A stretch of DNA of 36,748 nucleotides from Deltaproteobacteria bacterium. Lineage in GTDB: Bacteria; Desulfobacterota; Deferrimicrobia; Deferrimicrobiales; Deferrimicrobiaceae. The translations under genes and the position numbers were made by a program. The notes beneath the pieces were generated by a model. It was not told the origin of the DNA, did not search any database, and saw only the letters and a program-made list of their open reading frames with translations. Below, piece by piece: positions 8,822 through 24,758 of the stretch (within the stretch, counting starts at the first letter, position 1; the number at the start of each line of letters is the position of its first letter). Where the stretch lies: positions 1 to 36,748 of the forward strand of contig JACRNP010000203.1 of the NCBI GenBank assembly GCA_016234845.1, in the 5' to 3' direction.

Positions 8822-9733
8822 ATGAACCGACAGCCGACCGGCCTTCAGGAACGAATCGCATCCGGGAAAACGATCCTCCTGGCGGAAGTCCATCCTCCGC
8901 AGGGCGGAGATCCGGCGCCGTTGCGGGCGGCTGCCCGCCGGTACGCCGGGAAGGTCCACGCCGTGGGCGTCAGCGACAACAGGGACCGGGTCGCGATGTC
9001 GGCCCTGGCGGCGGCTTCCGTGTTTTTGGCCGAAGGACTGGAGCCGATTCTTCACGTGACCACGCGGGATCGGAACCGGATCGCCCTCGTATCCGAGGCG
9101 CTGGGCGCGCAGGCACTGGGGATCCGCAACTTGCTGTGCACCAGCGGCAACCACCAGACGCTCGGCACCTTCCGTGCCGCCCGGAACGTTTACGACATCG
9201 ACGCCGTGCAGCTGCTGCAGGCCTACGCACACCTGGAGAACGACGGGGGACTTCTGGGCGAGCGCGGGCTTTCGGGGGCCGGGCCGTTCTGCCTGGGCGC
9301 CGTGGCGTCCCCGGATGCCGATCCGCCCGGCATGCAGCTGCTGCGGCTTGCGAAGAAGACGCGGGCCGGGGCGAAATTCCTGGTCACCCAGCCGGTCTAC
9401 GACCTGGAACGATTCGAAGCGTGGTGGAAAGAGGTCACCTCGCTCGGCCTGCACGAACAGGTGGCCATCCTGGCGGGCATCCATCCGCTCTCCGACACGC
9501 ACTTCGGGCAGGCGGGGTCCCGTCCGCACCAGGGAATCCCCGATTCGCAGGCGGCCCGGCTGGCCTCCTTGAGCGATCCGGGCGCCTGGCGCGACGCCGC
9601 CATCCAGATCGCGCTGGAAACCGTCCGCCGGCTCTCGAATCTCCAGGGGATTCGCGGATTCTGCATCTCCGCCAACGGAGACCAGGAGGCCGCTCTCCAG
9701 ATCATCGATGAATCCGGGTTGGCGAGCGGCTGA
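8822..9733 (+). CDS. metF: Methylenetetrahydrofolate reductase, MetF subunit
   Basis: This 303-residue TIM-barrel flavoprotein is of the 5,10-methylene-THF reductase family, which reduces CH2-THF to CH3-THF. The N-terminal A-E-V-H-P-P carries the conserved glutamate, and V-T-Q-P-V-Y-D corresponds to the family's T-Q-P-F/Y-D. The length suits MetF of the MetFV type, which needs the cysteine-rich partner MetV; MetV is encoded as the last gene of the same operon (23391-24083). In Moorella, MetFV is associated with HdrABC and MvhD, and the same partners are present here. AAGG lies about 10 nt before the ATG. The separation of metF and metV by ten genes is unusual. Confidence 0.92.
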   Translation: MNRQPTGLQERIASGKTILLAEVHPPQGGDPAPLRAAARRYAGKVHAVGVSDNRDRVAMSALAAASVFLAEGLEPILHVTTRDRNRIALVSEALGAQALGIRNLLCTSGNHQTLGTFRAARNVYDIDAVQLLQAYAHLENDGGLLGERGLSGAGPFCLGAVASPDADPPGMQLLRLAKKTRAGAKFLVTQPVYDLERFEAWWKEVTSLGLHEQVAILAGIHPLSDTHFGQAGSRPHQGIPDSQAARLASLSDPGAWRDAAIQIALETVRRLSNLQGIRGFCISANGDQEAALQIIDESGLASG

Positions 9734-9735
9734 TC

Positions 9736-11133
9736 ATGCCGGCCAAGTACGCCATCCACCATAAGACGGCGAAGCCTCGTTTCCGGCCCATCGGGAAGCT
9801 GGGGATCGTCGATTGGCGGGAAGACTGCTCGAGTTGCCACAACTGCGTGAAACGGGACTGCGTGTACCGCTTGTACCGCGACGAGGCCGACACCCTGCGC
9901 GACGAGGCCGGCTACCTGGACTACATCTACCAGTGCAAGGGATGCCTGAACTGCGTCCAGAACTGCACGAAGAACATCCTGACCCGCGTGATCAACCCCG
10001 AGTTCCTCCGGCTGGGCGACGGCTACTACACCCCGGACCTCATCCTGTCCACGTGGTACCAGGCGGAGACGGGGAAGATCCCGGTGTCGGGAGCGGGCTA
10101 CGGAGGCCCCTTCAGCGGCCCCGGTTTCGATTCGATGTGGACCGACATGTCCGAGATCGTGCGTCCCACGCGCGACGGGATCCACGGCCGGGAGTACATC
10201 AGCACCGGCGTGGACATCGGCCGCAAGCTTCCTCACCTTGCCTTCGATGACGGGCGACTGAAGGTCGATCCTCCGCCGCTTGCGGAAACGCCCCTGCCCG
10301 TCCTCTTCGACCGGATTCCCCGGCACTGGAACCGCGGGGCGGTGACGGCCCTGATCGCGTCGGCCGCCGCGGAGATCGGCACGCTGGCCGTCCTCGACGA
10401 GGCGGACCACCGGGAGAACGAGGCCGCCGCACGCGGCCGGGCGATCCCGTTCCTTACGGCTCCGCATCCGGAAACGGCGCAACCGGGGGGGGCGGCGACG
10501 CTGGTGATGATCCCGGACGGCCCCGACGTGCTGGAAGCGCAGGCGGCGCTGAAAGCGGATCATCCGGGAAGGATCGTGGCCATCCGCATTCCGGCGGATC
10601 CGGCCGCCGCCGGCCGCGTTGCGACGTTGGCCCGGGATGGAGCGGATGCGATCTTCATGGCGTTCGACCGCCACGGGAGGGAGAACGGTTCGGCCCACCC
10701 CCGCCACATGCGCGACGTGTTGCGGGATGCGCACACCACGCTGGTCCGGCAGGGGATCCGGGACGAGGTCACGCTGATCGCCTCGGGCGGGATCGCCGCC
10801 GCGGAGCACGTGGCCAAGGCGATCATCTGCGGAGCCGACCTGGTGGCGATCGACGTCCCCCTGATCCTGGCCCTGGAATGCCGGCTCTGCGGGGAGTGCG
10901 AACGCGGGCAGGCGTGCCCGATCGCCCTGGAGGAGATCGACGCCGAATTCGGCGTCCGCCGCATCGTGAACCTGATGGCGGCCTGGCACTCGCAGCTCCT
11001 CGAAATGCTGGGCGCGATGGGGATCCGCGAAGTCCGCCGCCTGCGCGGCGAGACCGGCCGCTGCATGTTTTTCGAAGACCTCGAGCGCGACACCTTCGGC
11101 CGGTGGTTCGGTAAGAGGAAGGCGGACGCATGA
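9736..11133 (+). CDS. Ferredoxin-domain / degenerate glutamate-synthase FMN-barrel paralogue
   Basis: This 465-residue protein is a divergent paralogue of the downstream GltS-like protein. The N-terminus holds two [4Fe-4S] motifs (C31, C34, C37 with C42; C67, C70, C73, C77). Shared landmarks include G-D-G-Y-Y-T-P-D-L-I-L-S-T-W (compare G-D-R-R-W-T-P-D-L-L-L-S-T-W downstream), I-A-S-G-G-I, and the C-terminal cluster motif C382, C385, C388, C394. The central part lacks the FMN and substrate motifs kept by the downstream copy: P-G-L-G-G-H-L-L and the G-S-Y-G-G-T-G loop are absent, and the region from about 195 to 350 is Ala/Pro-rich and weakly conserved. It is therefore probably a structural or electron-transfer subunit rather than an active synthase. 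ATG starts 2 bp after the metF stop. Confidence 0.75.
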   Translation: MPAKYAIHHKTAKPRFRPIGKLGIVDWREDCSSCHNCVKRDCVYRLYRDEADTLRDEAGYLDYIYQCKGCLNCVQNCTKNILTRVINPEFLRLGDGYYTPDLILSTWYQAETGKIPVSGAGYGGPFSGPGFDSMWTDMSEIVRPTRDGIHGREYISTGVDIGRKLPHLAFDDGRLKVDPPPLAETPLPVLFDRIPRHWNRGAVTALIASAAAEIGTLAVLDEADHRENEAAARGRAIPFLTAPHPETAQPGGAATLVMIPDGPDVLEAQAALKADHPGRIVAIRIPADPAAAGRVATLARDGADAIFMAFDRHGRENGSAHPRHMRDVLRDAHTTLVRQGIRDEVTLIASGGIAAAEHVAKAIICGADLVAIDVPLILALECRLCGECERGQACPIALEEIDAEFGVRRIVNLMAAWHSQLLEMLGAMGIREVRRLRGETGRCMFFEDLERDTFGRWFGKRKADA

Positions 11134-12644
11134 GCACCGTTTCTTCCCTGCCCGAATCCGTTGAGGTGAGCCGCGAGGTCCGGCCGGCGCCGCCCCGCTA
11201 CCGCAACGAGATCGGCAAGTTCGCCATTCACCGCTCGTCCCTTTGCGCGGCCTGCGGCCGGTGCGTGGAGACCTGCCGGCACGGCGTCCACGTCCGTCCC
11301 GAAGGATATCTCCACGTCATGCGGCCGTTCGATTACCGGTGCATCGGCCCGGGCTGCGGGGAAACGGAATCGTACTGCATCGACGCCTGCGCCCACGGGG
11401 CGTTGAAGCTGTCCGCCAACCCGGTTTCGGAGACGATGGGCGACCGCCGCTGGACGCCGGACCTTCTCCTGAGCACCTGGGCGATGGCCGAAACCGGCCT
11501 CCCGCCCGGGAACCACCTGGAGAGCGAGGTGGGGGCCTCCGGAGGGGGGTTCGACCGCCTGCGCTTCCGCTTCCCGGACTCGCCTCCCCCAGGCCTTCGG
11601 CGGGAAGACATCTCTACGAAACTGGAGCTCAACCGCCGCGGCGATTCCCGGCCCAGGATCGCGATCGACGTCCCCTGGTACGGCGGCGGCATGTCCTTCG
11701 GCTCGACCAACATCCGCGCCCTCCTGGGCAAGGCGCGGGTGGCGAAAGCGTTCCACGGGTTCACCTGCACGGGCGAAGGCGGGTATCCCCAGCGCTTCAT
11801 CCCCTACAAGGACCACGTGATCACCCAGGTGGCCACCGGGCTGTTCGGTGTCCGCGAGGAGACGATCCAGCGGGCGCCGATCGTGGAATTCAAGTACGCG
11901 CAGGGGGCCAAGCCGGGGCTGGGAGGACACCTGCTGGGCGACAAGAACACCCCCAGCGTCGCGGCCATGCGGGAAACCGTCCAGGGCGTCTCCCTGTTCT
12001 CCCCGTTCCCGTTCCACAGCGTCTATTCGGTGGAAGACCACAGGAAGCACCTCGACTGGATCGCGCACGTAAACCCCAGGGCGCTGCTTTCGGCCAAGGT
12101 GTCGACCCCCGCCGACGTGGACATGGTGGCCGTCGGGATCTACTACGCCGGGGGCCACATCGTGCACCTGGACGGGAGCTACGGCGGCACGGGCGCCGCT
12201 CCCAACGTCGCCAAGAAGAACATCGCCATGCCGATCGAGTACGCGATCGGGCGGGTGCACGAATTCCTGGCGGCCGAGGGGATCCGCGACCAGGTCACGG
12301 TGATCGCCAGCGGCGGCATCCGGACTCCCGCCGACGTCGCCAAGGCGATCGCCATGGGCGCCGACGGATGCGTGATCGGCACGGCGGAACTGGTGGCCCT
12401 GGGATGCATCCGCTGCACCGCCTGCGAGAGCGGACGCGGATGCGCGCGGGGGATCGCGACGACCGACGACGAGCTGCTGGAAATGGTGGACATCGAGTGG
12501 TGCACGCAGCGGCTGGTGAACCTGTACGCCGCGTGGCAGCGGATGCTGGTGGACCTGCTGTTCCGGCTGGGGCTCGATTCCGTGAGCGCCCTGCGGGGGC
12601 GCACCGACCTGCTGACCCACCTGGATTACGAACATGAAGCGTGA
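11130..12644 (+). CDS. Glutamate synthase FMN/Fe-S domain protein with N-terminal ferredoxin domain
   Basis: This 504-residue protein is the FMN-barrel subunit of a dissected, archaeal-style glutamate synthase, which makes glutamate from 2-oxoglutarate and glutamine-derived ammonia. N-terminal ferredoxin-like cysteines are C39, C42, C45, C49 and C71, C76, C83, C87. The synthase core is well preserved: Y-G-G-G-M-S-F-G-S, K-P-G-L-G-G-H-L-L-G-D-K, K-V-S-T-P-A-D-V-D, H-L-D-G-S-Y-G-G-T-G-A-A-P, and I-A-S-G-G-I-R-T-P-A-D-V-A-K-A with G-A-D-G-C-V-I-G-T. A cluster motif follows at C426, C429, C432, C438. No NADPH-binding GltD-type subunit is encoded, so electrons presumably arrive through the ferredoxin domains. 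The start overlaps the previous stop (ATGA), and the last 11 bp overlap the GATase gene. Confidence 0.88.
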   Translation: MSTVSSLPESVEVSREVRPAPPRYRNEIGKFAIHRSSLCAACGRCVETCRHGVHVRPEGYLHVMRPFDYRCIGPGCGETESYCIDACAHGALKLSANPVSETMGDRRWTPDLLLSTWAMAETGLPPGNHLESEVGASGGGFDRLRFRFPDSPPPGLRREDISTKLELNRRGDSRPRIAIDVPWYGGGMSFGSTNIRALLGKARVAKAFHGFTCTGEGGYPQRFIPYKDHVITQVATGLFGVREETIQRAPIVEFKYAQGAKPGLGGHLLGDKNTPSVAAMRETVQGVSLFSPFPFHSVYSVEDHRKHLDWIAHVNPRALLSAKVSTPADVDMVAVGIYYAGGHIVHLDGSYGGTGAAPNVAKKNIAMPIEYAIGRVHEFLAAEGIRDQVTVIASGGIRTPADVAKAIAMGADGCVIGTAELVALGCIRCTACESGRGCARGIATTDDELLEMVDIEWCTQRLVNLYAAWQRMLVDLLFRLGLDSVSALRGRTDLLTHLDYEHEA

Positions 12645-15276
12645 AGGGAACGGCGGGGCCGACATGCGGCGGGTGCAGGCCCTGCTCCGATCCCGCGCGC
12701 ACCTGCGGCCGACGCAACCCTGGGTACCCCGGCCGCCGGAAGCGGAGGGAGGGTGCGGCGTCACCGGGTTCGCCTGCACGATCCCCGTGGGCGGGAAGCA
12801 CATCTACGAACCTTCCATGCAGATGCGCAACCGCGGCAACGGCAAGGGAGGCGGGATCGCCGCCTGCGGGCTCGTGCCCGAAGAGCTGGGCGTGTCGCGC
12901 CGGGTGCTGGATGAAAACTACATCCTCCAGGTCGCCCTGCTGGACCCCTCCGCCCGGGACGAGGTGGAAAAATCGTTCGTCGCCCCCTTCTTCGACATCG
13001 ACCACGGGGGCCTGATCCCCACCGTGGACGATTTCCGCGACGTGCCGCTGCTGGAAGTCCGGCCCCCGGACGTGGCCCGCTACTTCGTCCGGGTCAAGCC
13101 CGACGTGCTCTCCCGGTTCGCCGGGGAGAGGAAACTGGATTCGGCGGATCTCACCGAGCGGGAAGTGGAGGACGAGTTCGTCTTCCAGAACTCGATCGCG
13201 CTGAACAACCGGTTCTACGCCTCGCTGGGCGACAAGCGGGCCTTCGTGATGTCCCACGCGCGGAACCTCATCATCCTCAAGATCGTGGGCTACGCCGAGG
13301 CCGCCGTGCAGTACTACCGCATGCCCGACACGCACGCCCACGTCTGGATCGCCCACCAGCGGTTCCCGACGAAAGGCCGCGTGTGGCACCCGGGCGGAGC
13401 GCACCCGTTCATCGGCCTGAACGAGGCCCTGGTGCACAACGGCGACTTCGCCAATTACCACTCGGTGTGCGAGTATCTGGCCGGGCGCGGCATCTTCCCG
13501 CAGTTCCTCACCGACACGGAGGTGTCCGTCCTCCTGTTCGATCTCTGGAACCGGGTCTACCGCTACCCGATGGAGTACATCATCGAGGCGCTGGCGCCGA
13601 CGACGGAGCTGGACTTCGACCGCCTTCCGTCGGAGAAGCAGCGGATCTACCGGCAGATCCAGGCGGCGCACATCCACGCCTCGCCCGACGGCCCCTGGTT
13701 CTTCATCATCGCCCGCACCCTGGCCGCCACGGGGGAGTTCCAGCTGATGGGGATCACCGACACCGCCATGCTGCGGCCTCAGGTGTTCGCCCTGCAGGAA
13801 GGCGAGGAGTCCATAGGGCTCATCTGCTCGGAGAAGCAGGCCATCGACGCGACCCTGGCCAGCCTGGCCGGCGAGGACCCTCGGTTCACCCCGGTCGCCG
13901 ACATGTACTGGAACGCCCGCGGCGGAAGCCACACCGACGGGGGGGCCTTCCTGCTGACGGTCTCCCCGGCGGGGGATCGCTACCGCATGCGCGTCACGAA
14001 CAAGTTCGGCACGGAAGTCTCCACGGTGTCCGACCAGGTCCACTGCGACCTATCCGTTCCTCCGGCTGCCACGTCGTGCACGGACGAGGACGCGGCGGCC
14101 ATCGAGCGGTGCGCGGGCGACGGCGATTCCGAGGCGCTCTACGCCCACCTTCTCGGCCGGCTCCCCTCGATGGACTTCGACTCCTTCCGCCGGTTCGTCG
14201 ACCGCTGGGCCGGACGGACGGCCTCCGATGCGCCGGGCCTGGGCATCGAGGCCCTGACGAAATGCATGGACCGCCGCTATCTCACCGGGGAGAAGAAACG
14301 AAGCTCCCTGCTGACCATCCTCCGCGGCGGACTGGAACGGATCTTCGAACGGCAACCCCTGTGCGACGACGCGCGGGCGGGCACCCACGTGCGCGTCACC
14401 CGGGAAACCCGGGACCGCCTGCGCGGTCCGCGTCCCGGCGAGACGACGCTTCTGATCGACGCCCGCGGTTTCCCGCCCGAAGGCGAGGAGTGCGACGCGG
14501 CGTTGGCGATCCGGGCCTACCGTCTCGGATGGCGTCGCCTGGTCCACTACAACACGCGGGGAACCCGGTTCCACGGCGTAGGCCTGGGCCCCGGCACCGC
14601 GGGACTGCGGATCGACTGCTACGACAACCCGGGAGACTATCTCGGCTCCGGGATGGACGGCCTGGGGATCTACGTCCACGGCAACGCCCAGGACCAGCTA
14701 TGCCAGATCAGCAAGCAGGGGAAGCTGGTCGTCTACGGGGATGTGGGGCAGACCTTCCTCTACGGAGCCAAGGGCGGCGAGGCGTACGTGATGGGGAACG
14801 CGGCCGGCCGGCCGATGATCAACGCCGTCGGCGGGCCGCGGGTGGTGATCAACGGCACCGCCCTGGACTACCTGGCCGAGTCGTTCATGGCCGGCGACCC
14901 CCACAACGGCGGCGGCTTCGCCGTCGTCAACGGCCTGCAGTACGACCCGAACGGCCGGCTGCGCCCGCTGGACCTCCCGTACCCCGGCGGCAACCTGCTT
15001 TCCCTGGCCTCCGGCGGGGCGGTCTACATCCGCGACCCCCGGCGCACGCTGGTCGAGGAGCAGCTCAACGGCGGCGTGTACCGGCCCCTGTCCGCCGCCG
15101 ACTGGAGGCTTATCCTGCCGTACCTGGAAGAGAACGAGCGGCTGTTCGACATCCGGATCGACCGCGACCTGCTGACCGTCGACGGGATCCTGAAGTCGCC
15201 GCAGGCGGTCTACCGCAAGGTGGTGCCCCGCAACGACGCCGAAGCCGAGGCGGACCTGGAGGGACTTGGCGGATGA
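12634..15276 (+). CDS. Glutamate synthase GATase(class II)-GXGXG fusion
   Basis: This 880-residue protein joins the two outer parts of glutamate synthase without the FMN core. The N-terminal Ntn-type glutaminase has its likely nucleophile at C41 (G-G-C-G-V-T-G-F), implying removal of a 40-residue propeptide. H-Q-R-F-P-T-K-G, the oxyanion/Gln-binding H-N-G-D-F, and T-D-T-E-V-S are all present. The C-terminal third (about 600-800) is the GXGXG beta-helix: G-S-G-M-D-G-L-G-I-Y-V-H-G, G-D-V-G-Q-T-F-L-Y-G and Y-V-M-G-N-A-A-G-R-P. In canonical GltB the FMN barrel lies between these domains; here it is the preceding separate gene. The start could also be the ATG at 12664, which still leaves a propeptide. 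The stop overlaps hdrC (ATGA). Confidence 0.88.
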   Translation: MKREGNGGADMRRVQALLRSRAHLRPTQPWVPRPPEAEGGCGVTGFACTIPVGGKHIYEPSMQMRNRGNGKGGGIAACGLVPEELGVSRRVLDENYILQVALLDPSARDEVEKSFVAPFFDIDHGGLIPTVDDFRDVPLLEVRPPDVARYFVRVKPDVLSRFAGERKLDSADLTEREVEDEFVFQNSIALNNRFYASLGDKRAFVMSHARNLIILKIVGYAEAAVQYYRMPDTHAHVWIAHQRFPTKGRVWHPGGAHPFIGLNEALVHNGDFANYHSVCEYLAGRGIFPQFLTDTEVSVLLFDLWNRVYRYPMEYIIEALAPTTELDFDRLPSEKQRIYRQIQAAHIHASPDGPWFFIIARTLAATGEFQLMGITDTAMLRPQVFALQEGEESIGLICSEKQAIDATLASLAGEDPRFTPVADMYWNARGGSHTDGGAFLLTVSPAGDRYRMRVTNKFGTEVSTVSDQVHCDLSVPPAATSCTDEDAAAIERCAGDGDSEALYAHLLGRLPSMDFDSFRRFVDRWAGRTASDAPGLGIEALTKCMDRRYLTGEKKRSSLLTILRGGLERIFERQPLCDDARAGTHVRVTRETRDRLRGPRPGETTLLIDARGFPPEGEECDAALAIRAYRLGWRRLVHYNTRGTRFHGVGLGPGTAGLRIDCYDNPGDYLGSGMDGLGIYVHGNAQDQLCQISKQGKLVVYGDVGQTFLYGAKGGEAYVMGNAAGRPMINAVGGPRVVINGTALDYLAESFMAGDPHNGGGFAVVNGLQYDPNGRLRPLDLPYPGGNLLSLASGGAVYIRDPRRTLVEEQLNGGVYRPLSAADWRLILPYLEENERLFDIRIDRDLLTVDGILKSPQAVYRKVVPRNDAEAEADLEGLGG

Positions 15277-15833
15277 CCCAACCGATGCCATGGAACGGGG
15301 GCGACCTCCAGGAGGAAGTCCGGCGTCGCAGCGGCACCCCGGTGGCCGCGTGTTACCAGTGCCACAAGTGCAGCACGGGATGCCCCGTCGGCCCCGAGAT
15401 GGATTTCCTCCCCAGCCAGGTCATGAGGCTGGTGCACCTGGGCGCGGAAGAGGAGGTGCTCGCTTCCCGCTCGATCTGGCTGTGCGCGTCGTGCGAGACG
15501 TGCACCACGCGCTGCCCCATGGCGATCGACATCGCCGGCGTGATGGACGCCCTGCGGATCCTGGCCGTCGAGCGGAGGATCGACCTGCCGGACGCGCGGG
15601 GGAAACAGTTCCACCGCAGCTTCCTGGGCAGCGTCCGGCGCCACGGCCGCGTGTACGAGATGGGCATGATGACCGCCTACAAGGTGCGGATCGGCGACCT
15701 GTGCACCGACATGGACAAGGTCCCGCGGTTGCTGGCCGAGGGGAAACTCTCGCTGCTGCCCCACCGCAGCGGCGGCATCCGGCAGGTTCGAGAGATCTTC
15801 CGCCGGGCGGAGGAAAAGGACGGGACACCTTGA
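15273..15833 (+). CDS. hdrC: Heterodisulfide-reductase-like subunit C
   Basis: This 186-residue protein has two [4Fe-4S] motifs typical of HdrC: C27, C30, C33, C37 (C-Y-Q-C-H-K-C-S-T-G-C-P) and C71, C74, C77, C81 (C-A-S-C-E-T-C-T-T-R-C-P). HdrC carries electrons from HdrA to HdrB. The length matches the soluble cytoplasmic form, and there is no membrane b-type cytochrome domain. The start overlaps the previous stop (ATGA) and the end overlaps the TTG start of hdrB (TTGA). In bacteria without coenzyme M/coenzyme B the HdrBC pair acts as a general electron or disulfide module, so a heterodisulfide substrate should not be assumed. Confidence 0.93.
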   Translation: MTQPMPWNGGDLQEEVRRRSGTPVAACYQCHKCSTGCPVGPEMDFLPSQVMRLVHLGAEEEVLASRSIWLCASCETCTTRCPMAIDIAGVMDALRILAVERRIDLPDARGKQFHRSFLGSVRRHGRVYEMGMMTAYKVRIGDLCTDMDKVPRLLAEGKLSLLPHRSGGIRQVREIFRRAEEKDGTP

Positions 15834-16726
15834 AGTACGCGTTCTTTCCCGGCTGCAGCCTCGAGTCCACGGCGCGCCCGTTCGACCTCTCCACCCGGGC
15901 GGTGTGCCGCGCGCTGGGGATCGCGCTGGAGGAGATCCCGGATTGGGCCTGCTGCGGCTCGACGCCCGCGCACGCCAGCAGCGATTCCCTCGCCGTCGCC
16001 CTGCCGGCGTTCAACCTCCGGAAGGCGCAGGACGCGGGGCTGCCGGTGATGGTCGCCTGCGCGTCCTGCTACGCCCGGCTGCGGACCGCAAACCACCGGA
16101 TCGGCCGCGAGCCGGAAGACCGCCGCCGCGCCGAGCGGGTCACGGGCCGCCCCTACGACGGCGGGGTCGAGGTGCGGCACGTGCTGGACGTGCTCGTGAA
16201 CCGGCTGGGAGCGGACCGGATCCGCTCGAAGGTGGTCCGGCCGCTGGCCGGGTGGAAGGTGGCCTGCTACTACGGGTGCCTGTTGACCCGCCCGCCGGAG
16301 GTCGTCGCCTTCGACGATCCGGAACACCCTGCCTGCATTGACGTTCTGGCGGAGGCCGCGGGGGCGGAGACCGTGGATTGGCCGTTCCGGACGGAGTGCT
16401 GCGGGGCCAGCCTGTCCATGACGCACCCCGAGGTCGTGGGCCGCCTGGTCCACAGGCTCCTGGGGATGGCGCAGGAAGCCGGGGCGAACCTCGTGGCGGT
16501 CGCCTGTCCCCTGTGCCAGGTCAACCTCGACCTGCGCCAGGCCGAAGCGGCGAAGGCCCACGGCCCGCTGCGGCCCATGCCGGTCCTGTACATCACGCAA
16601 CTGCTGGGCCTCGCGCTGGGACTTTCCCCGGAGGCCCTGGGAATCGATCCCAGGACGGTCGGCCCCGGCATGCCGCCGCCCGACCTCGCCGCCGGGGCGA
16701 TCGGCGCCGGGGGAGGGAACCGATGA
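15830..16726 (+). CDS. hdrB: Heterodisulfide-reductase-like subunit B (two CCG domains)
   Basis: This 298-residue protein has two complete cysteine-rich CCG domains, which in HdrB bind non-cubane [4Fe-4S] clusters. The first uses C9, C41-C42 (A-C-C-G-S), C77 and C80 (A-C-A-S-C). The second uses C146/C150, C190-C191 (E-C-C-G-A), C226 and C229 (A-C-P-L-C-Q-V-N-L). No key cysteine is missing, so catalytic or electron-sink capability is likely kept. The start is a TTG overlapping the hdrC stop (TTGA); it yields M-K-Y-A-F-F-P-G-C-S, the standard HdrB N-terminus, and no ATG gives a better one. The last 25 or so residues are a Gly/Pro/Ala-rich tail beyond the family fold. Confidence 0.93.
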   Translation: MKYAFFPGCSLESTARPFDLSTRAVCRALGIALEEIPDWACCGSTPAHASSDSLAVALPAFNLRKAQDAGLPVMVACASCYARLRTANHRIGREPEDRRRAERVTGRPYDGGVEVRHVLDVLVNRLGADRIRSKVVRPLAGWKVACYYGCLLTRPPEVVAFDDPEHPACIDVLAEAAGAETVDWPFRTECCGASLSMTHPEVVGRLVHRLLGMAQEAGANLVAVACPLCQVNLDLRQAEAAKAHGPLRPMPVLYITQLLGLALGLSPEALGIDPRTVGPGMPPPDLAAGAIGAGGGNR

Positions 16727-17634
16727 CGCTTCCGGATACGAAATCTCCGACCGCGGCCGGAAGCGGCGGCAACGCCCCCTGCGGGGCGGTGCTGGTGTGC
16801 GGAGGAGGCGTCGCCGGAATCCAGGCCTCGCTGGATCTCTCGGCGGCGGGATTCCGGGTCTACCTGGTGGAAGAGAGCCCGACGATCGGCGGCGGCATGG
16901 CGCGACTCGACAAGACCTTCCCGACCGGGGACTGCGCCACGTGCATCATCTCGCCCAAGCTGGTGGAGTGCATGCGGGACTACAACGTCGAAGTGATGAC
17001 GATGGCCGACGTGGCCTCGCTTGAGGGGGAGCCGGGACGGTTCACCGCGGAGGTGCGGAAGCGGCCGCGGGGGGTGATCCCCTCCCGGTGCACCGGCTGC
17101 GGAGATTGCTGGGAGGCTTGCCCGGTTCGGAACGTGGCCCAGCCGACGCCCGCCTTCCGACCCTCCGAGCGGTTGGCCGCCGATGATGCGGCCTGGATCG
17201 ACGGCATCCTCGACCGGTACCGGGGGGATCCGGGGCCGCTGATCCCTATCCTGCAGGACGTAAGCGACGACCGGCGGTATCTGCCCCGCCCCGTGCTGGA
17301 ACACGTGTCGGAACGCCTCGGGATCCCGATGGTCGAGATTCTCCGGGTGGCCAGTTTCTACAACGCCTTCAGCCTGGAGCCGGTCGGGCGGCACGTCGTG
17401 GAGGTCTGCCTCGGAACCGCGTGCTTCGTGCGCGGGTCGGGGCTGCTCATGGAACGCCTGGAGGGGGAGATCGGCGTCCGGATGGGAGGCACCGATCCGC
17501 AAGGACGCTTCACGCTCCGCTCGGTCCGCTGCATCGGCTGCTGCGCGCTGGCCCCGGCCATGCGCATCGGCGGCATCACCTTCGGGAAGGTCCGGCTCGA
17601 CGGGGTCGCGGAGATCCTGGAGCGGTTCCAATGA
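16723..17634 (+). CDS. HdrA N-terminal half fused to NuoE
   Basis: This 303-residue fusion has two parts. Residues about 20-140 are the first half of an HdrA flavin domain: the dinucleotide-binding G-G-G-V-A-G-I-Q-A-S, E-S-P-T-I-G-G-G-M-A, D-K-T-F-P-T-G-D-C-A-T-C with C71 and C74, and a ferredoxin motif C123, C126, C129, C133. The sequence leaves HdrA just after C-P-V, where a canonical HdrA would continue for several hundred residues. Residues about 150-303 are a NuoE-type thioredoxin-fold [2Fe-2S] domain with C229, C234, C270, C274. The N-terminal C-x2-C-G domain of HdrA is also absent. The missing C-terminal half is found in the 19577-22915 protein, so the FAD site is probably completed between two polypeptides. 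Start and stop both overlap their neighbours (ATGA). Confidence 0.9.
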   Translation: MTLPDTKSPTAAGSGGNAPCGAVLVCGGGVAGIQASLDLSAAGFRVYLVEESPTIGGGMARLDKTFPTGDCATCIISPKLVECMRDYNVEVMTMADVASLEGEPGRFTAEVRKRPRGVIPSRCTGCGDCWEACPVRNVAQPTPAFRPSERLAADDAAWIDGILDRYRGDPGPLIPILQDVSDDRRYLPRPVLEHVSERLGIPMVEILRVASFYNAFSLEPVGRHVVEVCLGTACFVRGSGLLMERLEGEIGVRMGGTDPQGRFTLRSVRCIGCCALAPAMRIGGITFGKVRLDGVAEILERFQ

Positions 17635-19580
17635 CCGAACTCCTCCGCACGCAGGCCGACCTCGATCGCGCCGCCGCGCTGGGCCGGGAAACCCTCTACC
17701 CCGCGCGGCTGAAGGTCCTGGTCGGATCGGCCAGCTGCGGGCTGGCGGCCGGCGCGCAGGCGGTGGAAGAGGCCGCGCTCGAAACGGTTACGCGGCTGGG
17801 GCTGGACGCGGTCGTCGCGCGGACGGGGTGCATCGGGTTCTGCCAGCGCGAGCCTCTGGTCGACCTGCTGCTCCCCGACGGTCCGAGGATCACGTACGCC
17901 AACGTGACGGCGAAGTCGATCCGCAATCTCCTGGAATCGTACGCGGCCGGAGGGGCGCTCCCGGCGGGCGCGGCCCTTTGCCGCTGGCAGCGCGAGGAGC
18001 ACGTGGCCGACGGGACGCTCCACGTATATCCCGCGGCGGCCAACGGGGCCGGGCAGATCCCCGAGGGGGCCACCCTGCCGTTCTATCGGCGGCAGCGGCG
18101 CGTGATCCTGCGCAACTGCGGCTCGATCGATCCGATGCGCCTGGAGGAAGGCCTTGCGCGCGGCGCGTACCGCGGCGCCCTCCGCGCCCTGACGCAGATG
18201 ACGCCCGAGGAGGTAATTGCCGAGATCCGCGAGTCGGGCCTTCGGGGCCGCGGCGGAGCGGGGTTCCCCACGGGACGGAAATGGGAGACCGCGCGCCGGG
18301 CGCAGGGCGACGTCAAGTACGTGGTCTGCAACGCGGACGAGGGGGACCCGGGGGCCTTCATGGACCGGAGCGTGCTGGAGAGCGATCCGCACGCGGTCCT
18401 GGAAGGGATGCTCGTCGCTTCCTACGCGATCGGGGCCCGGGAAGGATACCTCTACATCCGTTCCGAGTACCCGCTGGCCGTGTCGACCGTCACCCACGCC
18501 ATCCGGGAGGCGGAAGCCCGCGGGCTGCTGGGCGACGGCATCTTCGGCAGCGGCCACGGCTTCCGCGTGCGGGTCCGCCGCGGCGCGGGAGCGTTCGTGT
18601 GCGGCGAGGAGACGGCGCTGATCGCCTCGATCGAAGGACGCTCCGGCGAGCCGCGTCCGCGCCCCCCCTTCCCGGCCGAGAGCGGCCTGTGGGGGAAGCC
18701 CACGGTCATTAACAACGTCAAGACCTGGGCCAGCGTGGGACCGATCCTCTCCCGCGGCGCGGCGTGGTACGCCGCCGACGGGACCGACCGCAACCGCGGC
18801 ACCACGGTGTTCGCCCTCGTCGGAGCCGTGAAGAACACCGGCCTCGTCGAGATCCCGCTGGGGCTCACGCTGCGCGAAATGGTCCTGGAGATCGGGGGCG
18901 GAATCCGCGGCAAGCGGGCGCTGAAGGCGGTCCAGACGGGCGGGCCGTCGGGCGGCTGCCTCCCGGCCTCGTTGCTCGACCTGCCCATCGACTACGAACG
19001 TCTGAGCGAGGCGGGCTCCATGATGGGATCGGGGGGGATGATCGCCATCGACGCGGGAACCTGCATGGTCGATCTCGCGCGTTTCTTCCTCGCCTTCACG
19101 GCGGACGAGTCGTGCGGCAAGTGCACCCCTTGCCGCGAAGGGACCGGCCACATGCTCCGGATCCTCTCCCGGATCTGCGAGGGGGCCGGCGTCCCGGAGG
19201 ACCTGGCGGTCCTGGAACGGCTGGCGCGGACCCTGAAATCGGCCTCGCTGTGCGGGCTGGGGGGCACGGCCCCGAACCCCGTCCTTTCGGCCCTGCGGTA
19301 TTTCCGGGAGGAGTTCGAGGAGCACATCCACCGGAAGCGGTGTCCCGCCGGGGTCTGCCGCGCCCTCGTCCGGTTCCGGATCGACGAGGCGCTGTGCACC
19401 GGGTGCGGGCGGTGCATCGAAGTGTGTCCGGTAGGCGCGATCCGGGGCGAGCTCAAATCGGCGCACGCGATCGACCTGGCCCTTTGCACCCGTTGCGGCG
19501 CGTGCCGCGCGGTCTGCCCTGTCGACGCCGTCGAAAGCGCCGGACGGGACCACGAAAAGGCGGTGAGAGGCGGAACATGA
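17631..19580 (+). CDS. nuoF: NuoF/HydB-like NADH-binding flavoprotein with extra ferredoxin domain
   Basis: This 649-residue protein is the NADH-oxidising FMN subunit of complex-I/HydB/HndC type. Domains in order are an N-terminal thioredoxin-like module (C36, C67, C71), the FMN site (G-R-G-G-A-G-F-P-T-G-R-K-W, about 206-218), the NADH-site motif A-D-E-G-D-P-G-A-F, the N3 [4Fe-4S] ligands C495, C498, C501 and C541, and a C-terminal two-cluster ferredoxin domain (C589, C592, C595, C599 and C619, C622, C625, C629). The N-terminal and C-terminal additions match soluble bifurcating-hydrogenase and NADH-dehydrogenase homologues rather than respiratory complex I. It lies between the two HdrA fragments, so it is the presumed NADH entry point of the complex. 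Its start overlaps the previous stop (ATGA). Confidence 0.93.
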   Translation: MTELLRTQADLDRAAALGRETLYPARLKVLVGSASCGLAAGAQAVEEAALETVTRLGLDAVVARTGCIGFCQREPLVDLLLPDGPRITYANVTAKSIRNLLESYAAGGALPAGAALCRWQREEHVADGTLHVYPAAANGAGQIPEGATLPFYRRQRRVILRNCGSIDPMRLEEGLARGAYRGALRALTQMTPEEVIAEIRESGLRGRGGAGFPTGRKWETARRAQGDVKYVVCNADEGDPGAFMDRSVLESDPHAVLEGMLVASYAIGAREGYLYIRSEYPLAVSTVTHAIREAEARGLLGDGIFGSGHGFRVRVRRGAGAFVCGEETALIASIEGRSGEPRPRPPFPAESGLWGKPTVINNVKTWASVGPILSRGAAWYAADGTDRNRGTTVFALVGAVKNTGLVEIPLGLTLREMVLEIGGGIRGKRALKAVQTGGPSGGCLPASLLDLPIDYERLSEAGSMMGSGGMIAIDAGTCMVDLARFFLAFTADESCGKCTPCREGTGHMLRILSRICEGAGVPEDLAVLERLARTLKSASLCGLGGTAPNPVLSALRYFREEFEEHIHRKRCPAGVCRALVRFRIDEALCTGCGRCIEVCPVGAIRGELKSAHAIDLALCTRCGACRAVCPVDAVESAGRDHEKAVRGGT

Positions 19581-22500
19581 GCGCATCCTCGTCGGATCGG
19601 GTTCGGGTCACCCTCGACGGCCGTACCGCGGAAGTCGCCCGCGGGGCGACGATCCTCGACGCCGCCCGCCAGATGGCCGTCGCGATCCCCACGCTCTGCC
19701 ACTACCGCGGCCTCTCGCCGTACGGGGCCTGCCGGGTCTGCGTGGTGGAGATCGACGCGGCGGGGGGACCCAGGCTGGTGGCCGCGTGCACCCACCCGGT
19801 GGAAGACGGCCTCGTCGTGCGCACCGACACCGACGCCGTGCGGGAGTCGCGGAACACGGTCCTCGAGCTGCTGCTGGCGCAGGCCCCCGAATCGGAGGAG
19901 CTGGCCGGTATCGCCGCCGGGCTCGGGGTCCGCTCCACCCCCTTCGAGCCGGCCGCAAAGGGAAAGTGCGTCCTCTGCGGGCTGTGCGTCTCGGCGTGCG
20001 GCGACCTGATGGGGCGGGGGGCGATCGGCCTGTACGGACGCGGCGGGCGGCGGGCCGTGTCGACGGCGTTCGGCGAGCCCACCGACCAGTGCCAGGCGTG
20101 CGGGGCGTGCGCCTTCGTCTGTCCCGCGGGAGCGATCGACCTGTCCACCATCACGTCGCGCCGGGTGAAACCCCACGTGACGGCCTTCGACAAGCACCTG
20201 ACCGCCAGGCCGTGCATCGACCTGGCACACCCCCAGGCTTCCCCCCGCGTTCCGGCGATCGACCGGGAGAGCTGCGTCCACTTCACGACGGGCGAATGCG
20301 GCCTGTGCGAAAAGGTCTGCCAGGCCGGCGCCATCGACTACGGCCAGCCGGAGGAAACCGTCCGCCTGGAGGTCGGCGCCGTGGTCCTGACGCCCGGGTT
20401 CGAGGCGTTCGACGCAAGGCGGCGGGGCGAGTTCGGGTTCGGCTTCGCGGCGAACGTGCTCACGAACGTGCAGTTCGAACGGCTCCTGTCGGCCTCCGGC
20501 CCCACCGGCGGACACGTCCTGCGCCCCAGCGACGGGCGCCCTCCGGCCCGGCTGGCCTTCATCCAGTGCGTGGGGTCACGCGACACGGGATGCGACAACG
20601 ACTACTGCTCCTCGGTCTGCTGCATGGCCGCGACCAAGGAGGCGATCCTGGCCAAGGAGCACGTGCCGGGCCTGGACGTGACCGTCTTCTTCCTCGACCT
20701 GCGCGCCTTCGGCAAGGATTTCGACCGTTACTACGAACGGGCGCGGAACCAGCTGGGCGTCCGGTACCTGCGCTCGTTCATCTCCCGGACGTACGAGATG
20801 CCCGGGACGAAGAACCTGCGCGTCGTCTACGCGACTCCCGGGATGAAGCCGGCCGAGGAGGAGTTCGACATGATCGTGCTTTCCCTCGGCCTGGAGCCCA
20901 GCGCAACGCTGCGGGAACAGGCCGGGCGGATGCAGGTCGTGCTGAACCGGTGGGGGTTCGCGCAAACCGGCGAGCTCCACCCGCTGGACACGTCCCGCCC
21001 GGGGGTGTTCGTGGGCGGCGCTTTCCAGGAGCCCAAGGACATCCCCGACACGGTGATGCAGGCCAGCGCCGCGGCGTCCCGGGCCATGGCCCTGCTGGCT
21101 CCGGCGCGCGGCACGCGCATGCGGACCAAGAGCTATCCGCAGCAACGCGACATCGCGGACGAGCCGCCGCGCGTGGGCGTGTTCATCTGCCATTGCGGAA
21201 GCAACATCGCCTCGGTGGTCGACGTCGAGCGTGTGGTCCGGAACACGCGGGAACTGCCGGATGTGATCCTCGCGGAAAGCCACACCTACACGTGCGAGGA
21301 CGACACGCAGAAGCTCATCCGGGAGCGGATCGCCGCGCACCGGCTGAACCGGATCGTCGTGGCCTCGTGCACTCCTCGGACCCACGAGCCCATTTTCCGC
21401 GAAACGTTGCGCGACGCCGGTCTCAACCCCTACCTGCTGGAAATGGCCAACATCCGCGACCAATGCTCCTGGGTCCACTCCGGAGAGCCGGAAAAGGCGA
21501 CGGACAAGGCGGTCGACCTCGTCCGCATGGCGGCGGCGCGCGCGGCGCGCCTGCAGCCGCTTACGGAAGCCACCGTCCCCGTGAACAACGCCGCCCTCGT
21601 GGTCGGCGGCGGAATCGCCGGGATGACGGCCGCCCTGGCGTTGGCCGACCAGGGGTTTCCCGTACATCTCGTCGAGAAAACCGGGGAGCTCGGGGGAACT
21701 TCCCTCCGGCATCACCGGACGCTGGACGGCCAGGACGTGGGGAAATACGTCGCCGACACGATCGTCCGGGTCCGCGGCCACAAATGGGTCAAGGTCCACC
21801 TCAACACCCGCGTGAGCAAGGTCGGAGGGCATGTCGGCGAGTTCTCCTCGACGCTGGTCGCAGACCGCGGCACCGACAGCGTCCGGCACGGCGTGGTCGT
21901 GGTGGCCACCGGCGCCACGGAACACCGGCCCCTGTCGTACGGGTACGGCAGCGGCGATCGGATTCTGACGCAGCTGGAACTCGGGGATCGCCTGGGACGG
22001 GGAGAGATCGCGCTGCCGGATCATCCCACGATCGCGATGATCCAGTGCGTGGAGCAGCGGACCACGGAACGGCCCTACTGCAGCCGCGTTTGCTGCACCA
22101 GCGCCGTAAGGAATGCGTTGCTCCTCAAGGAACGGTACCCCGGCGCGCGGATCATCGTCCTCTATCGCGACATGCGGACCTTCGGCTTCCGGGAGGCGGC
22201 GTACCGCGAGGCGCGCGAGAAAGGGGTTCTGTTCGTCCGCTACGACCCCGCGCTGCCGCCGTCCCTTACGGTCGGCGGACGCCTGGAACTGCGGGTGCGG
22301 GAACCGTCGCTGGGGCGGGATCTTGCGCTTGCGCCGGACCTGGTGGTGCTGGCCGCCCCCATGATCCCGCGCGCGGACCGGCAGGAACTTTCGGAACTGC
22401 TGCGCGTCCCCCTGAATGCCGACGGCTTCTTCCTGGAAGCCCACATGAAGCTTCGACCGGTGGATTTCGCCAGCGAGGGGCTGTTCCTCTGCGGCACGGC

Positions 22501-22915
22501 CCACGCCCCGAAGTTCTTAGGCGAAGCGATCGCCCAGGCCCATGCGGTGGCGGGCCGTGCCGCGTCCATCCTCACCCGGAAAAAGATGCGGGTGAGCGGC
22601 CAAACCGCCTGGGTGGATCCGGACAAATGCATCTCCTGCCTGACGTGCGTGCACGTCTGCCCGTACATGGCGCCGCGCGTCAACGAGTTCCAGAAAGCCG
22701 AGGTGCAAGGCGCGGTGTGCATGGGGTGCGGCAGCTGCACGGCGGAATGCCCGGCGATGGCCGTCACGCTCCGACACTACGTGGACCGGCAGATCCTGGC
22801 CGCGATCGACGGCCTGCTGCGCACGGAACCCGCCGCCGCGGCATGGGAGCCCCGGTACCCGGAACAGGTGGGTGTCGCCACGCCGCGCTGGCACAAGAGC
22901 CGGGGGGATGGATGA
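19577..22915 (+). CDS. NuoG-like module + HdrA C-terminal half + full-length HdrA (triple fusion)
   Basis: This 1112-residue protein has three parts. Residues 1-190 are the NuoG/HydA-type N-terminus: [2Fe-2S] ligands C41, C52, C55, C71 and two [4Fe-4S] motifs (C131, C134, C137, C141; C172, C175, C178, C182). Residues about 200-512 are the second half of an HdrA lacking its N-terminal half: I-D-R-E-S-C-V-H, C-G-L-C-E-K-V-C, I-Q-C-V-G-S-R and C-S-S-V-C-C. Residues about 530-1112 are a complete HdrA: F-I-C-H-C-G-S-N-I, C-T-P-R-T-H-E-P, the FAD motif G-G-G-I-A-G-M-T-A-A, Y-C-S-R-V-C-C, and a two-cluster ferredoxin domain (C1018-C1028, C1048-C1058). The full-length copy lacks the D-K-T-F-P-T-x-D-C insert seen in the split copy. 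Overall it links NADH-side clusters, two flavin sites and ferredoxin in one chain. Start overlaps nuoF and stop overlaps mvhD copy 2 (both ATGA). Confidence 0.93.
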   Translation: MSASSSDRVRVTLDGRTAEVARGATILDAARQMAVAIPTLCHYRGLSPYGACRVCVVEIDAAGGPRLVAACTHPVEDGLVVRTDTDAVRESRNTVLELLLAQAPESEELAGIAAGLGVRSTPFEPAAKGKCVLCGLCVSACGDLMGRGAIGLYGRGGRRAVSTAFGEPTDQCQACGACAFVCPAGAIDLSTITSRRVKPHVTAFDKHLTARPCIDLAHPQASPRVPAIDRESCVHFTTGECGLCEKVCQAGAIDYGQPEETVRLEVGAVVLTPGFEAFDARRRGEFGFGFAANVLTNVQFERLLSASGPTGGHVLRPSDGRPPARLAFIQCVGSRDTGCDNDYCSSVCCMAATKEAILAKEHVPGLDVTVFFLDLRAFGKDFDRYYERARNQLGVRYLRSFISRTYEMPGTKNLRVVYATPGMKPAEEEFDMIVLSLGLEPSATLREQAGRMQVVLNRWGFAQTGELHPLDTSRPGVFVGGAFQEPKDIPDTVMQASAAASRAMALLAPARGTRMRTKSYPQQRDIADEPPRVGVFICHCGSNIASVVDVERVVRNTRELPDVILAESHTYTCEDDTQKLIRERIAAHRLNRIVVASCTPRTHEPIFRETLRDAGLNPYLLEMANIRDQCSWVHSGEPEKATDKAVDLVRMAAARAARLQPLTEATVPVNNAALVVGGGIAGMTAALALADQGFPVHLVEKTGELGGTSLRHHRTLDGQDVGKYVADTIVRVRGHKWVKVHLNTRVSKVGGHVGEFSSTLVADRGTDSVRHGVVVVATGATEHRPLSYGYGSGDRILTQLELGDRLGRGEIALPDHPTIAMIQCVEQRTTERPYCSRVCCTSAVRNALLLKERYPGARIIVLYRDMRTFGFREAAYREAREKGVLFVRYDPALPPSLTVGGRLELRVREPSLGRDLALAPDLVVLAAPMIPRADRQELSELLRVPLNADGFFLEAHMKLRPVDFASEGLFLCGTAHAPKFLGEAIAQAHAVAGRAASILTRKKMRVSGQTAWVDPDKCISCLTCVHVCPYMAPRVNEFQKAEVQGAVCMGCGSCTAECPAMAVTLRHYVDRQILAAIDGLLRTEPAAAAWEPRYPEQVGVATPRWHKSRGDG

Positions 22916-23394
22916 ACGGCGAACCGTTGATCCTGGCGTTCTGCTGCCACTACTGCGCCTACGCGGCGGCGGACCTGGCCGGCTCGATGCGCCTGCAATA
23001 CCCCGGGAATGTCCGAGTGCTGCGGCTGCCTTGCACCGGCAAGCTGGAGGTGAACTTCGTGCTGGCGGCGTTCGAACGCGGCGTCGACGGGGTCATCGTG
23101 GCCGGGTGCCTCGAGGGGGGCTGCCATTTCCTGGAAGGAAATCTGCGGGCCCGCCGGCGGGTCGAGCGGGCCCGGGAACTGCTCGCCGAGATCGGCCTGG
23201 AGCCGGAGCGGCTGGAGATGTTCAACCTGTCGTCCGCGGAGGGCACCCGGTTCGCCGAAATCGCGACGACCATGGTGGAACGCGTGAAGGCGTTGGGCCG
23301 GAGCCCGCTGCGTCCGGAACCGAAACGCATCGAACACGAAATCCAGGAAATCAGCCGGCAGGCGGATGCGATGCTGGCGGGAGAAAAACGATGA
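22912..23394 (+). CDS. mvhD: MvhD-like [2Fe-2S] electron-transfer subunit, copy 2
   Basis: This 160-residue protein is a standard MvhD/FlpD-family subunit. It has F-C-C-H-Y-C-A-Y-A-A-A-D (C11, C12, C15), L-P-C-T-G-K-L-E (C41) and A-G-C-L-E-G-G-C-H-F (C66, C71). It lies between the HdrA-containing gene and metV, matching the metV/hdr/mvhD neighbourhood known from acetogens, so it probably hands electrons from HdrA to MetFV. Its first-cysteine region is closer to the family standard than that of copy 1. Start and stop both form ATGA overlaps with the neighbours. Confidence 0.92.
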   Translation: MNGEPLILAFCCHYCAYAAADLAGSMRLQYPGNVRVLRLPCTGKLEVNFVLAAFERGVDGVIVAGCLEGGCHFLEGNLRARRRVERARELLAEIGLEPERLEMFNLSSAEGTRFAEIATTMVERVKALGRSPLRPEPKRIEHEIQEISRQADAMLAGEKR

Positions 23395-24083
23395 TCGTCG
23401 CCGACCGCAAGAAGATCCCGGAGATCCGCGACATGGTAAAGGAACACCGCCGCGTGCTGCTGGTGGGATGCGGCACCTGCGTCACCGTCTGCCTGGCCGG
23501 CGGGGAACGGGAAACCGGCATTCTCGGCTCGGCGTTGCGCATGGCCCTGCGGCTCCAGGGCCACGGGGACGTGGCGGTCGACGAGTGCACCATCGAGCGG
23601 CAGTGCGAGGACGCCTTCATCGACCTCCTCGCCCCGCGGGTTTCCGACTACGACGCGATCTGCTCGCTGGGATGCGGTGCGGGCGTCCAGGCGTTGGCCG
23701 AGCGGTTTCCCAGGATGCCCGTCTACCCGGGGCTGAACACGCAATTCATGGGGATCCTCGAATCGCAGGGTGTCTGGACGGAGAAGTGCAGCGGCTGCGG
23801 GAATTGCCGTCTCGGCGAATTCGCGGGGATCTGCCCCATCACGCGCTGCGCCAAGCGGCTGTTCAACGGGCCGTGCGGCGGGTCGCGGGACGGAAAATGC
23901 GAGGTGCATCCGGACCTGGGTTGCGGCTGGCAACTGATCCACGACCGTGCCGCCAACCTGAGGATACTCGGTCGCTTCGAACGGATCGTGCCTGCGCACG
24001 ACTGGTCGACCGGCCAGGACGGCGGCCCCCGCAAAGTGGTCCGGGAAGATCAGTGCATCGCCGGCCTGTGCTCACGCGACTGA
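23391..24083 (+). CDS. metV: MetV, cysteine-rich partner of MetF
   Basis: This 230-residue protein is the methylenetetrahydrofolate reductase C-terminal-domain/MetV family. It begins with G-C-G-T-C-V-T-V-C (C27, C30, C34) and carries C-S-G-C-G-N-C (C133, C136, C139) with C148 and C153, then the diagnostic N-G-P-C-G-G-S (C162) and G-K-C-E-V (C170). In Moorella MetV binds Fe-S clusters and passes electrons to the MetF flavin. It ends the operon; the next gene begins 36 bp later with its own -10-like element. Finding metF and metV at opposite ends of the operon suggests that the genes in between were inserted into an older metF-metV-hdr unit, which is inference. Confidence 0.9.
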   Translation: MIVADRKKIPEIRDMVKEHRRVLLVGCGTCVTVCLAGGERETGILGSALRMALRLQGHGDVAVDECTIERQCEDAFIDLLAPRVSDYDAICSLGCGAGVQALAERFPRMPVYPGLNTQFMGILESQGVWTEKCSGCGNCRLGEFAGICPITRCAKRLFNGPCGGSRDGKCEVHPDLGCGWQLIHDRAANLRILGRFERIVPAHDWSTGQDGGPRKVVREDQCIAGLCSRD

Positions 24084-24749: not shown

Positions 24750-24758
24750 CCAGAAAAA

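Follow-up and report, generated by a model that had tools for sequence, protein, structure and literature searches.

HdrA complexes are central to energy conservation in many anaerobes, and in methanogens the inserted-ferredoxin loop of HdrA reduces ferredoxin. There is a long-standing debate over the electron donor of the methylene-tetrahydrofolate (methylene-THF) reductase step. Two HdrA residues, E356 and K409, are diagnostic of the bifurcating flavin (PMC9430772, PMC12054007). The Moorella HdrA is a tandem protein with GltD interrupting the first of its TrxR domains (PMC9430772), and type III HdrAs carry GltD/NfnB in the ferredoxin domain, where repeated insertions have been inferred (PMC9012536, PMC12054007). 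In PMC9304861, the Bam-Bfu class II benzoyl-CoA reductase is described with BamE as HdrA, BamF as an MvhD-like protein and BamGHI as BfuCBA, and the B2-cluster ligands of BfuB are given as C438, C476 or Thr, H525, C531 and C536. An 'X-type' methylene-THF reductase (MTHFR), in which a NuoEFG homologue lies upstream of metFV, has been described in Dethiosulfatarculus and is reported from Desulfobacterales and Chloroflexi as well (PMC8515935).

In the window, the whole 36,748-nucleotide stretch of Deferrimicrobiaceae DNA analyzed here, an HdrA (HdrA1) is split between two polypeptides, as the first-pass annotation had described. Polypeptide 1 (P0001; 16723..17634, on the + strand like all features below) comprises the HdrA1 N-terminal half (aa 22–136) fused to NuoE/BfuC (aa 155–302, which match NuoE). 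The HdrA half carries the GxGxxG FAD Rossmann motif, C71/C74, which correspond to HdrA C194/C197, and motif I of the inserted ferredoxin (C123/C126/C129/C133); its aa 23–136 align with HdrA residues 143–256 of 8rvv (E about 1e-34) and with positions 141–256 of the NCBIfam HdrA2 model. Polypeptide 2 (P0002) opens with a NuoG-like arm and continues as the HdrA1 C-terminal half (20174..21112, aa 200–512), in which aa 203–508 align with HdrA2 model positions 260–561. This half contains motif II of the inserted ferredoxin (C233/C241/C244/C248), the remainder of the FAD domain, and E301 and K354 at the positions of E356 and K409. Domain and PDB matches agree that the first protein runs from the FAD Rossmann motif to ferredoxin motif I of HdrA and then becomes NuoE, and the continuing model positions bear out the claim that the third protein starts as NuoG and resumes HdrA where the first fragment stopped. 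HdrA1 has neither the N-terminal domain nor the C-terminal ferredoxins of HdrA; Cys197 is present. The position of Cys197 is occupied by Sec in several homologues.

Alignment with intact relatives placed the end of half one directly past the motif CTGCGDCWEACPVRN and the restart of half two at xFDxxLxxRxxIxxxxPQAxPxxPxID..C, with no overlap between the pieces and no sequence lost, so that the two fragments complement each other within one HdrA, as had been proposed. A flavin site that two chains must complete is the most economical reading of such halves. The first-pass annotation had also suggested looking for the same split elsewhere, and we found the layout at 24 loci, spread over 22 genomes from two phyla; 20 of these loci are complete. 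The break lies between ferredoxin motifs I and II in every split locus; in 20/20 complete loci, half one has GxGxxG, C194/C197 and motif I, and half two has motif II, E356 and K409. One further candidate, L039 (G060), was left out: it has HdrA half one and NuoE, but neither NuoF nor NuoG follows downstream. A search of genome contigs with P0001 returned a single locus, L031.

The gene between the two HdrA-half genes encodes a HydB-like NuoF/BfuB (17631..19580), and these coordinates confirm the earlier placement of nuoF. The protein consists of an N-terminal thioredoxin-like [2Fe-2S] domain, an FMN/NADH domain and a C-terminal 2[4Fe-4S] domain, and has all five published BfuB B2-cluster ligands (C478, C516, H565, C571 and C576); across split loci, the four ligands that were counted are invariant (22/22). 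Its best PDB matches are bifurcating enzymes. The first part of polypeptide 2 is a NuoG/BfuA-like Fe-S arm (19577..20150, aa 1 to about 190; aa 7–189 match NuoG) with [2Fe-2S] cysteines 41/52/55/71 followed by two 4-Cys motifs. With the N-terminal [2Fe-2S] and C-terminal 2[4Fe-4S] domains of BfuB and a BfuC all present, the domain content identifies NuoEFG here as a Bfu-type (HydABC-like) bifurcating module. The earlier view of an NADH module between the HdrA halves stands, but the B2 ligands and the PDB matches make it a Bfu/HydABC-type bifurcating core and not a plain module of complex I. The annotated operon (8342-24083) contains no nuo membrane genes, holding Hdr, Met and Glt genes instead.

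This cluster begins with a second MvhD/FlpD-like gene (8342..8815), followed by MetF of the methylenetetrahydrofolate reductase family (8822..9733), three glutamate-synthase-like genes (9736-11133, 11130-12644 and 12634-15276), HdrC (15273..15833) and HdrB with its CCG domains (15830..16726); downstream of polypeptide 2 lie an MvhD/FlpD [2Fe-2S] electron-transfer subunit (22912..23394) and a MetV-like gene (DUF5981, methylene-THF reductase C-terminal family; 23391..24083). The glutamate-synthase-like trio (9736..15276) is syntenic in the four nearest split loci. Genes from HdrC to MetV are linked by 4-base overlaps, and the NuoE- and NuoG-fused HdrA halves, NuoF, HdrB, HdrC, MvhD, MetF and MetV form one translationally coupled operon that holds the complete Hdr-type methylene-THF reductase gene set (MetF, MetV, HdrA, HdrB, HdrC and MvhD). 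Judged by gene content, the operon would in effect encode a Moorella-like MetFV-Hdr methylene-THF reductase in which Bfu has replaced the GltD/NfnB input domain.

The last part of polypeptide 2 is a second HdrA (21161..22915, aa 529–1112) with an N-terminal domain, a Rossmann/TrxR domain and a C-terminal 2[4Fe-4S] domain. It had been called complete, but the inserted ferredoxin and Cys197 are both missing, as they are in 18/18 split loci. GxGxxG is retained in 18/18, whereas E356 and K409, kept in 20/20 split first HdrAs, drift in the second HdrA and are replaced by G and R in the window. The metabolic context of the window genome was assessed by single-family searches; when this genome, 96% complete, was searched with a composite HdrA, nothing came back except the split HdrA1 and the second HdrA carried on the same protein, and the split HdrA1 was the only complete HdrA flavin site found.

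From these sequences we consider it likely that a Bfu module is encoded inside the inserted-ferredoxin loop of a bifurcating HdrA, itself made of two polypeptides, and is covalently joined to that loop. The HdrA halves would reassemble, chain 1 supplying the Rossmann motif of the FAD site and chain 2 supplying E356/K409; provided that ligation follows the usual pattern of dicluster ferredoxins, the [4Fe-4S] clusters of the inserted ferredoxin would draw ligands from both chains. Operon context suggests that NADH (and ferredoxin) would react at NuoF, from which electrons could pass through the NuoG clusters to the ferredoxin and FAD of HdrA1, and then through the second HdrA to HdrBC and MvhD and on to MetV/MetF, or in the reverse direction. 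With somewhat less confidence, we favor a fuller reading in which two chains threaded through Bfu build the HdrA flavin, and probably the ferredoxin [4Fe-4S] clusters too, two bifurcation centers (FMN-FeS and FAD) are wired directly together in one complex, and the loop is a socket into which NfnB and Bfu have repeatedly been plugged or swapped in at least two phyla. AlphaFold2 single-chain models, built with few sequences as input, were poor and uninformative, with mean pLDDT values of 51 for P0001 and 36 for P0002. The identities of the two halves correlate as strongly in split loci (r = 0.81) as in intact ones (r = 0.75), a level reached by 0/1000 permutations; physical contact and the shared vertical descent of linked genes would both produce this result.

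The HdrA halves might instead be reused Fe-S/dinucleotide domains, each serving as a wire or scaffold in its own chain with no bipartite FAD site, while the second HdrA performs the flavin chemistry. Retention of GxGxxG in the second HdrA (18/18) fits this reading, as does the CxxCxxCxxxCP motif that belongs to NuoG itself and sits near HdrA motif II; the ferredoxin may even be built in chain 2 alone from these two motifs. We nevertheless think it unlikely that the halves are merely reused: it is the split first HdrAs that keep E356 and K409 (20/20), with G and R in the window's second HdrA, no variation is seen in the split halves at GxGxxG, in either half of the ferredoxin or at Cys197 (Sec in several homologues), and half one, at ~115 residues, is too small for a complete HdrA flavin domain.

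The first-pass annotation had explained the layout by a nuoEFG cassette that was inserted once into a tandem HdrA; inherited vertically from a single ancestor, such an insertion would account for all loci. This proved too simple, and we regard it as improbable. By their NuoF, the NuoE-fused cassettes form only two clades, which would allow one or two cassette origins followed by exchange of the HdrA flanks. In the HdrA1 tree, however, the AU test rejects a single clade, whether of all 20 loci (p = 7.6e-72) or of the 17 that are NuoE-fused (p = 3.6e-4). The split also occurs in HdrAs that are single and not tandem (L031, L092 and L097); L031 and L092 group with single non-tandem HdrAs (support 100/99), and their NuoFs lie outside the NuoE-fused clades. 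Moreover, L062, a split Bfu locus, pairs with L043, which has an in-chain NfnB insert: the two are 79% identical in half one, 81% in half two plus the second HdrA, and 80% in MvhD. For the four splits of family f8, a single clade could not be rejected (p = 0.104), and we claim no separate origin of L062 from that test. An intact tandem HdrA copy adjoins the split one at L070, and the uninterrupted HdrA-HdrA with separate NuoE, NuoF and NuoG genes that the first-pass annotation had proposed to seek was found at L049, L050, L071 and L110. The changes on the best tree may reflect losses or recombination instead of independent insertions; the split arrangement seems to have originated or moved several times. 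Because the trees reject a single HdrA-side origin and L062 and L043 carry different modules, the inserted-ferredoxin loop appears to be a recurrent evolutionary socket for NADH modules (NfnB and Bfu). We speculate that recombination at the CxxCGxCxxxCP motif common to NuoG and HdrA explains the identical breakpoints. An assembly, frameshift or annotation artefact is refuted even though the window comes from a fragmented draft of 213 contigs, since the 24 loci share gene order and junction across 22 separately assembled genomes, at identities down to about 44%, with clean 4-base gene overlaps.

A natural split HdrA makes it testable whether a bifurcating FAD site can form across two chains, and its union with Bfu whether two bifurcation centers of different chemistry work in series; L062 and L043, with ~80% identical HdrAs and different NADH modules, amount to a natural module-swap experiment. 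Recurrence in 22 genomes, with what seem to be several origins or moves, suggests that the loop serves for exchanging electron-input modules. Automated annotation likely calls these proteins NuoE- or NuoG-like and misses the HdrA halves; this may explain why such MTHFR operons have been recorded with NuoEFG alone.

The first-pass annotation knew of no described HdrA with this topology. For the split of the polypeptide itself we found no precedent in the literature searched, although the review of Appel et al. 2021 might mention one; an NADH module, GltD/NfnB, in the same loop was already known (PMC9012536, PMC12054007, PMC9430772). The 'X-type' MTHFR arrangement is probably the same as or neighboring the present one, and its description, in the sections of PMC8515935 used here, makes no mention of HdrA halves. 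The locus shares with the Bfu family a NuoF with N- and C-terminal Fe-S domains and five B2 ligands, but has as its BfuA partner a NuoG arm joined to one half of an HdrA, and no such member is given in the available parts of PMC9304861. As in Bam-Bfu (PMC9304861), HdrA is coupled to a BfuABC module; there an unbroken HdrA is accompanied by separate NuoE/F/G genes, whereas here these genes lie between the halves and are fused to them. The intact relatives L049, L050, L071 and L110 have a Bam-like gene order (tandem HdrA, MvhD, NuoE, NuoF, NuoG) and can be inferred to be Bam loci. Like the type III HdrAs of ANME-1 and Bathyarchaeota (PMC9012536, PMC12054007), the split HdrA has an NAD(P)H module in the inserted ferredoxin and keeps E356/K409, but those proteins are archaeal single chains with GltD/NfnB, no split being described there, whereas here NuoE/NuoF/NuoG make up the module and the chain is divided. 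Among the relatives examined that carry an NfnB insert, the insertion lies about 35–40 residues further on, within motif II. Moorella thermoacetica MetFV-HdrABC-MvhD (PMC9430772; PMC8515935) likewise brings MetF, MetV, HdrA, HdrB, HdrC and MvhD together, with a tandem HdrA whose second copy is without the inserted ferredoxin and whose first TrxR domain is broken by an NAD(P)H-handling module, but there the module is one GltD domain in a single 163-kDa chain, and here it is NuoE/NuoF/NuoG, with HdrA spread over two polypeptides.

The first HdrA of the window (HdrA1) is divided between two polypeptides encoded on either side of a NuoF gene (17631-19580). In P0001 (16723-17634), the HdrA match is confined to residues 22-136, a stretch that aligns with 143-256 in the HdrA structure 8rvv and with positions 141-256 in the NCBIfam HdrA2 model, and is followed by a NuoE match (residues 155-302). 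P0002 (19577-22915) opens with a NuoG match (residues 7-189), after which HdrA resumes (residues 203-508, HdrA2 260-561) and a second HdrA follows (residues 529-1082). This layout agrees with the first-pass annotation, which read P0001 as the first half of an HdrA leading into NuoE, P0002 as NuoG leading back into HdrA, and NuoF as lodged between the halves. It also took the second HdrA to be complete, but that copy, while possessing the N-terminal domain and C-terminal ferredoxins, lacks the inserted ferredoxin.

HdrA of known structure carries a pair of cysteine motifs in its inserted ferredoxin. Motif I (C123, C126, C129, C133) closes half one in the window, and motif II (C233, C241, C244, C248) begins half two. 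Compared with intact HdrAs, half one ends directly after CPVRN and half two starts at the stretch equivalent to FNxxLxxRxAIxxxxPQAxP; as had been proposed, the fragments are complementary parts of HdrA, with no overlap and no loss at the junction. In each of the 20 split loci whose halves are both complete, the first chain keeps GxGxxG, C194, C197 (HdrA numbering), and motif I unchanged, and the second keeps motif II, E356, and K409, the last two being residues used to recognise bifurcating HdrA flavins (PMC9430772; PMC12054007). At the positions of E356 and K409, the window's second HdrA carries G and R instead. In 18 of 18 split tandem loci the second HdrA lacks both Cys197 and the inserted ferredoxin, so that the N-domain and Cys197 are complementary between the two copies, as in tandem HdrAs of ANME archaea (PMC9012536). 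A composite-HdrA search of the window's genome (95.8% complete) returned only two HdrA sites, the split HdrA1 and the second HdrA of P0002. Divergence of the two halves is correlated (r = 0.81), as expected for contact and for joint inheritance alike, and single-chain AlphaFold models of P0001 and P0002 were poor because few sequences were used as input. The Cys197 position is an in-frame TGA, presumably specifying selenocysteine, in several split and intact homologues, including half one of L063, L064, L066, L070, and L092; selenocysteine is known in an HdrA of Desulfococcus (PMC5109826). Gene callers would truncate such HdrAs.

Like HydB/BfuB, the window NuoF carries an N-terminal [2Fe-2S] domain and a C-terminal 2[4Fe-4S] domain. 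Its top hits in the PDB are bifurcating enzymes, and none of the five B2-cluster ligands reported for BfuB is missing (C478, C516, H565, C571, C576; PMC9304861). We therefore regard the "NuoEFG" here as a BfuABC-type module, HydABC-like and presumably bifurcating.

The split arrangement occurs at 24 loci in 22 genomes, with 17 loci in the window's phylum, three of them cut by contig ends (L065, L067, L068), and seven in the phylum of L031 (labelled Candidatus Krumholzibacteriota), one similarly cut (L097). Among the open-access papers searched, we found no description of this arrangement. It takes three forms. Half one is fused to NuoE beside a tandem HdrA in the window type and unfused beside a tandem HdrA in L070. 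In L031, L092, and L097 it belongs to a lone HdrA, not a tandem one, that has an N-domain and C-terminal ferredoxins of its own. An even sample of 395 genomes from the window's phylum yielded strong full-length-type P0001 matches in 15, including G060. Sixteen genomes of the phylum passed our screens before G060 was excluded, its locus (L039) having no NuoF or NuoG-HdrA downstream of half one; at L039:3405-4307, a half one with an in-frame TGA neighbours a NuoE, with a sensor kinase-like region farther downstream, and may be an orphan or remnant.

The first-pass annotation envisaged one in-frame insertion into one tandem HdrA. Uninterrupted HdrA-HdrA proteins do exist, in Bam-like loci (L049, L050, L071, L110) with separate MvhD, NuoE, NuoF, and NuoG genes, and an intact copy adjoins the split one in L070 (tandem) and L031 (single). 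When the joined HdrA1 cores were placed in one tree (69 split, intact, and NfnB-inserted rows), however, split HdrA1s fell at several places among the others; the best tree shows eight changes, six or more of which are required by well-supported branches. A single clade was rejected for all 20 split rows (AU test, p = 7.6e-72) and for the 17 NuoE-fused rows (p = 3.6e-4); rejection was not reached for a clade of four rows of one family (p = 0.104). NuoE-fused cassettes formed two clades in the NuoF tree, and unfused ones were scattered. Several insertions of the module, several transfers of it, or both would account for this pattern; we give no exact count of origins because the changes may include losses or recombination. 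The clearest case is the pair L062 and L043, one with a split Bfu module and the other with an in-chain NfnB domain (NfnB/GltD being the alternative NADH module), which share 79% identity in half one, 81% over 859 residues of half two plus the second HdrA, and 80% in MvhD. The NfnB insertion point lies ~35-40 residues beyond the Bfu split point, and 12 of 12 NfnB-inserted HdrAs lack the first cysteine of motif II, indicating that the two modules entered the same loop at different joints.

The genes from HdrC (15273) to MetV (24083) each overlap the next by 4 bases, within an operon beginning at ~8342 with a second MvhD/FlpD-like gene (8342-8815), MetF, and, between MetF and HdrC, three glutamate-synthase-like genes (9736-15276) encoding an FMN domain split over two genes and a class II amidotransferase with a GXGXG domain. 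The trio occupies the same position in the window's nearest split relatives, and such genes also stand beside an NfnB-type Hdr/MetF cluster (L040). Its gene content leads us to infer that the operon encodes an Hdr-type methylene-THF reductase. Single-family searches of the genome gave a match for acetyl-CoA synthase (CdhC) but none for formate-THF ligase (FTHFS); in the Wood-Ljungdahl pathway, the methyl branch thus appears to be incomplete or supplied in another way. Neighbours differ at other split loci, those flanking L031, L038, and L063 including genes with a C-terminal signature (DPCxxCxTH, read by eye) like that of the [NiFe]-hydrogenase large subunit, so the HdrA-Bfu core may serve several partners. 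Downstream of the operon are five tRNA genes (Lys, Arg, His, Arg, Arg; 24544-24834, 27485-27561, 32192-32280) and minus-strand ORFs (24944-27460, 28652-31795) resembling, by eye, a heavy-metal P-type ATPase with two metal-binding domains and an RND-type efflux pump.

For the Bam-Bfu system, a published proposal has Bfu feeding HdrA by combining NADH with reduced ferredoxin (PMC9304861). Here, NADH and ferredoxin would react at NuoF. Electrons would travel along the NuoG clusters to HdrA1, reaching its ferredoxin, with one motif on each chain, and its FAD; MetV/MetF would then receive them by way of the second HdrA, HdrBC, and MvhD, or the flow would run the opposite way. The Hdr-type methylene-THF reductase of Moorella likewise has a tandem HdrA whose second copy lacks the inserted ferredoxin, with the first flavin domain interrupted by a GltD domain (PMC9430772); in the window, we propose, Bfu takes that place. 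The single-chain HdrA-NfnB-HdrA proteins of L040-L046 and L048 (~1500 residues), common in the window's phylum and several in MetF/MetV clusters, are bacterial counterparts of the archaeal Type III and Moorella HdrA.
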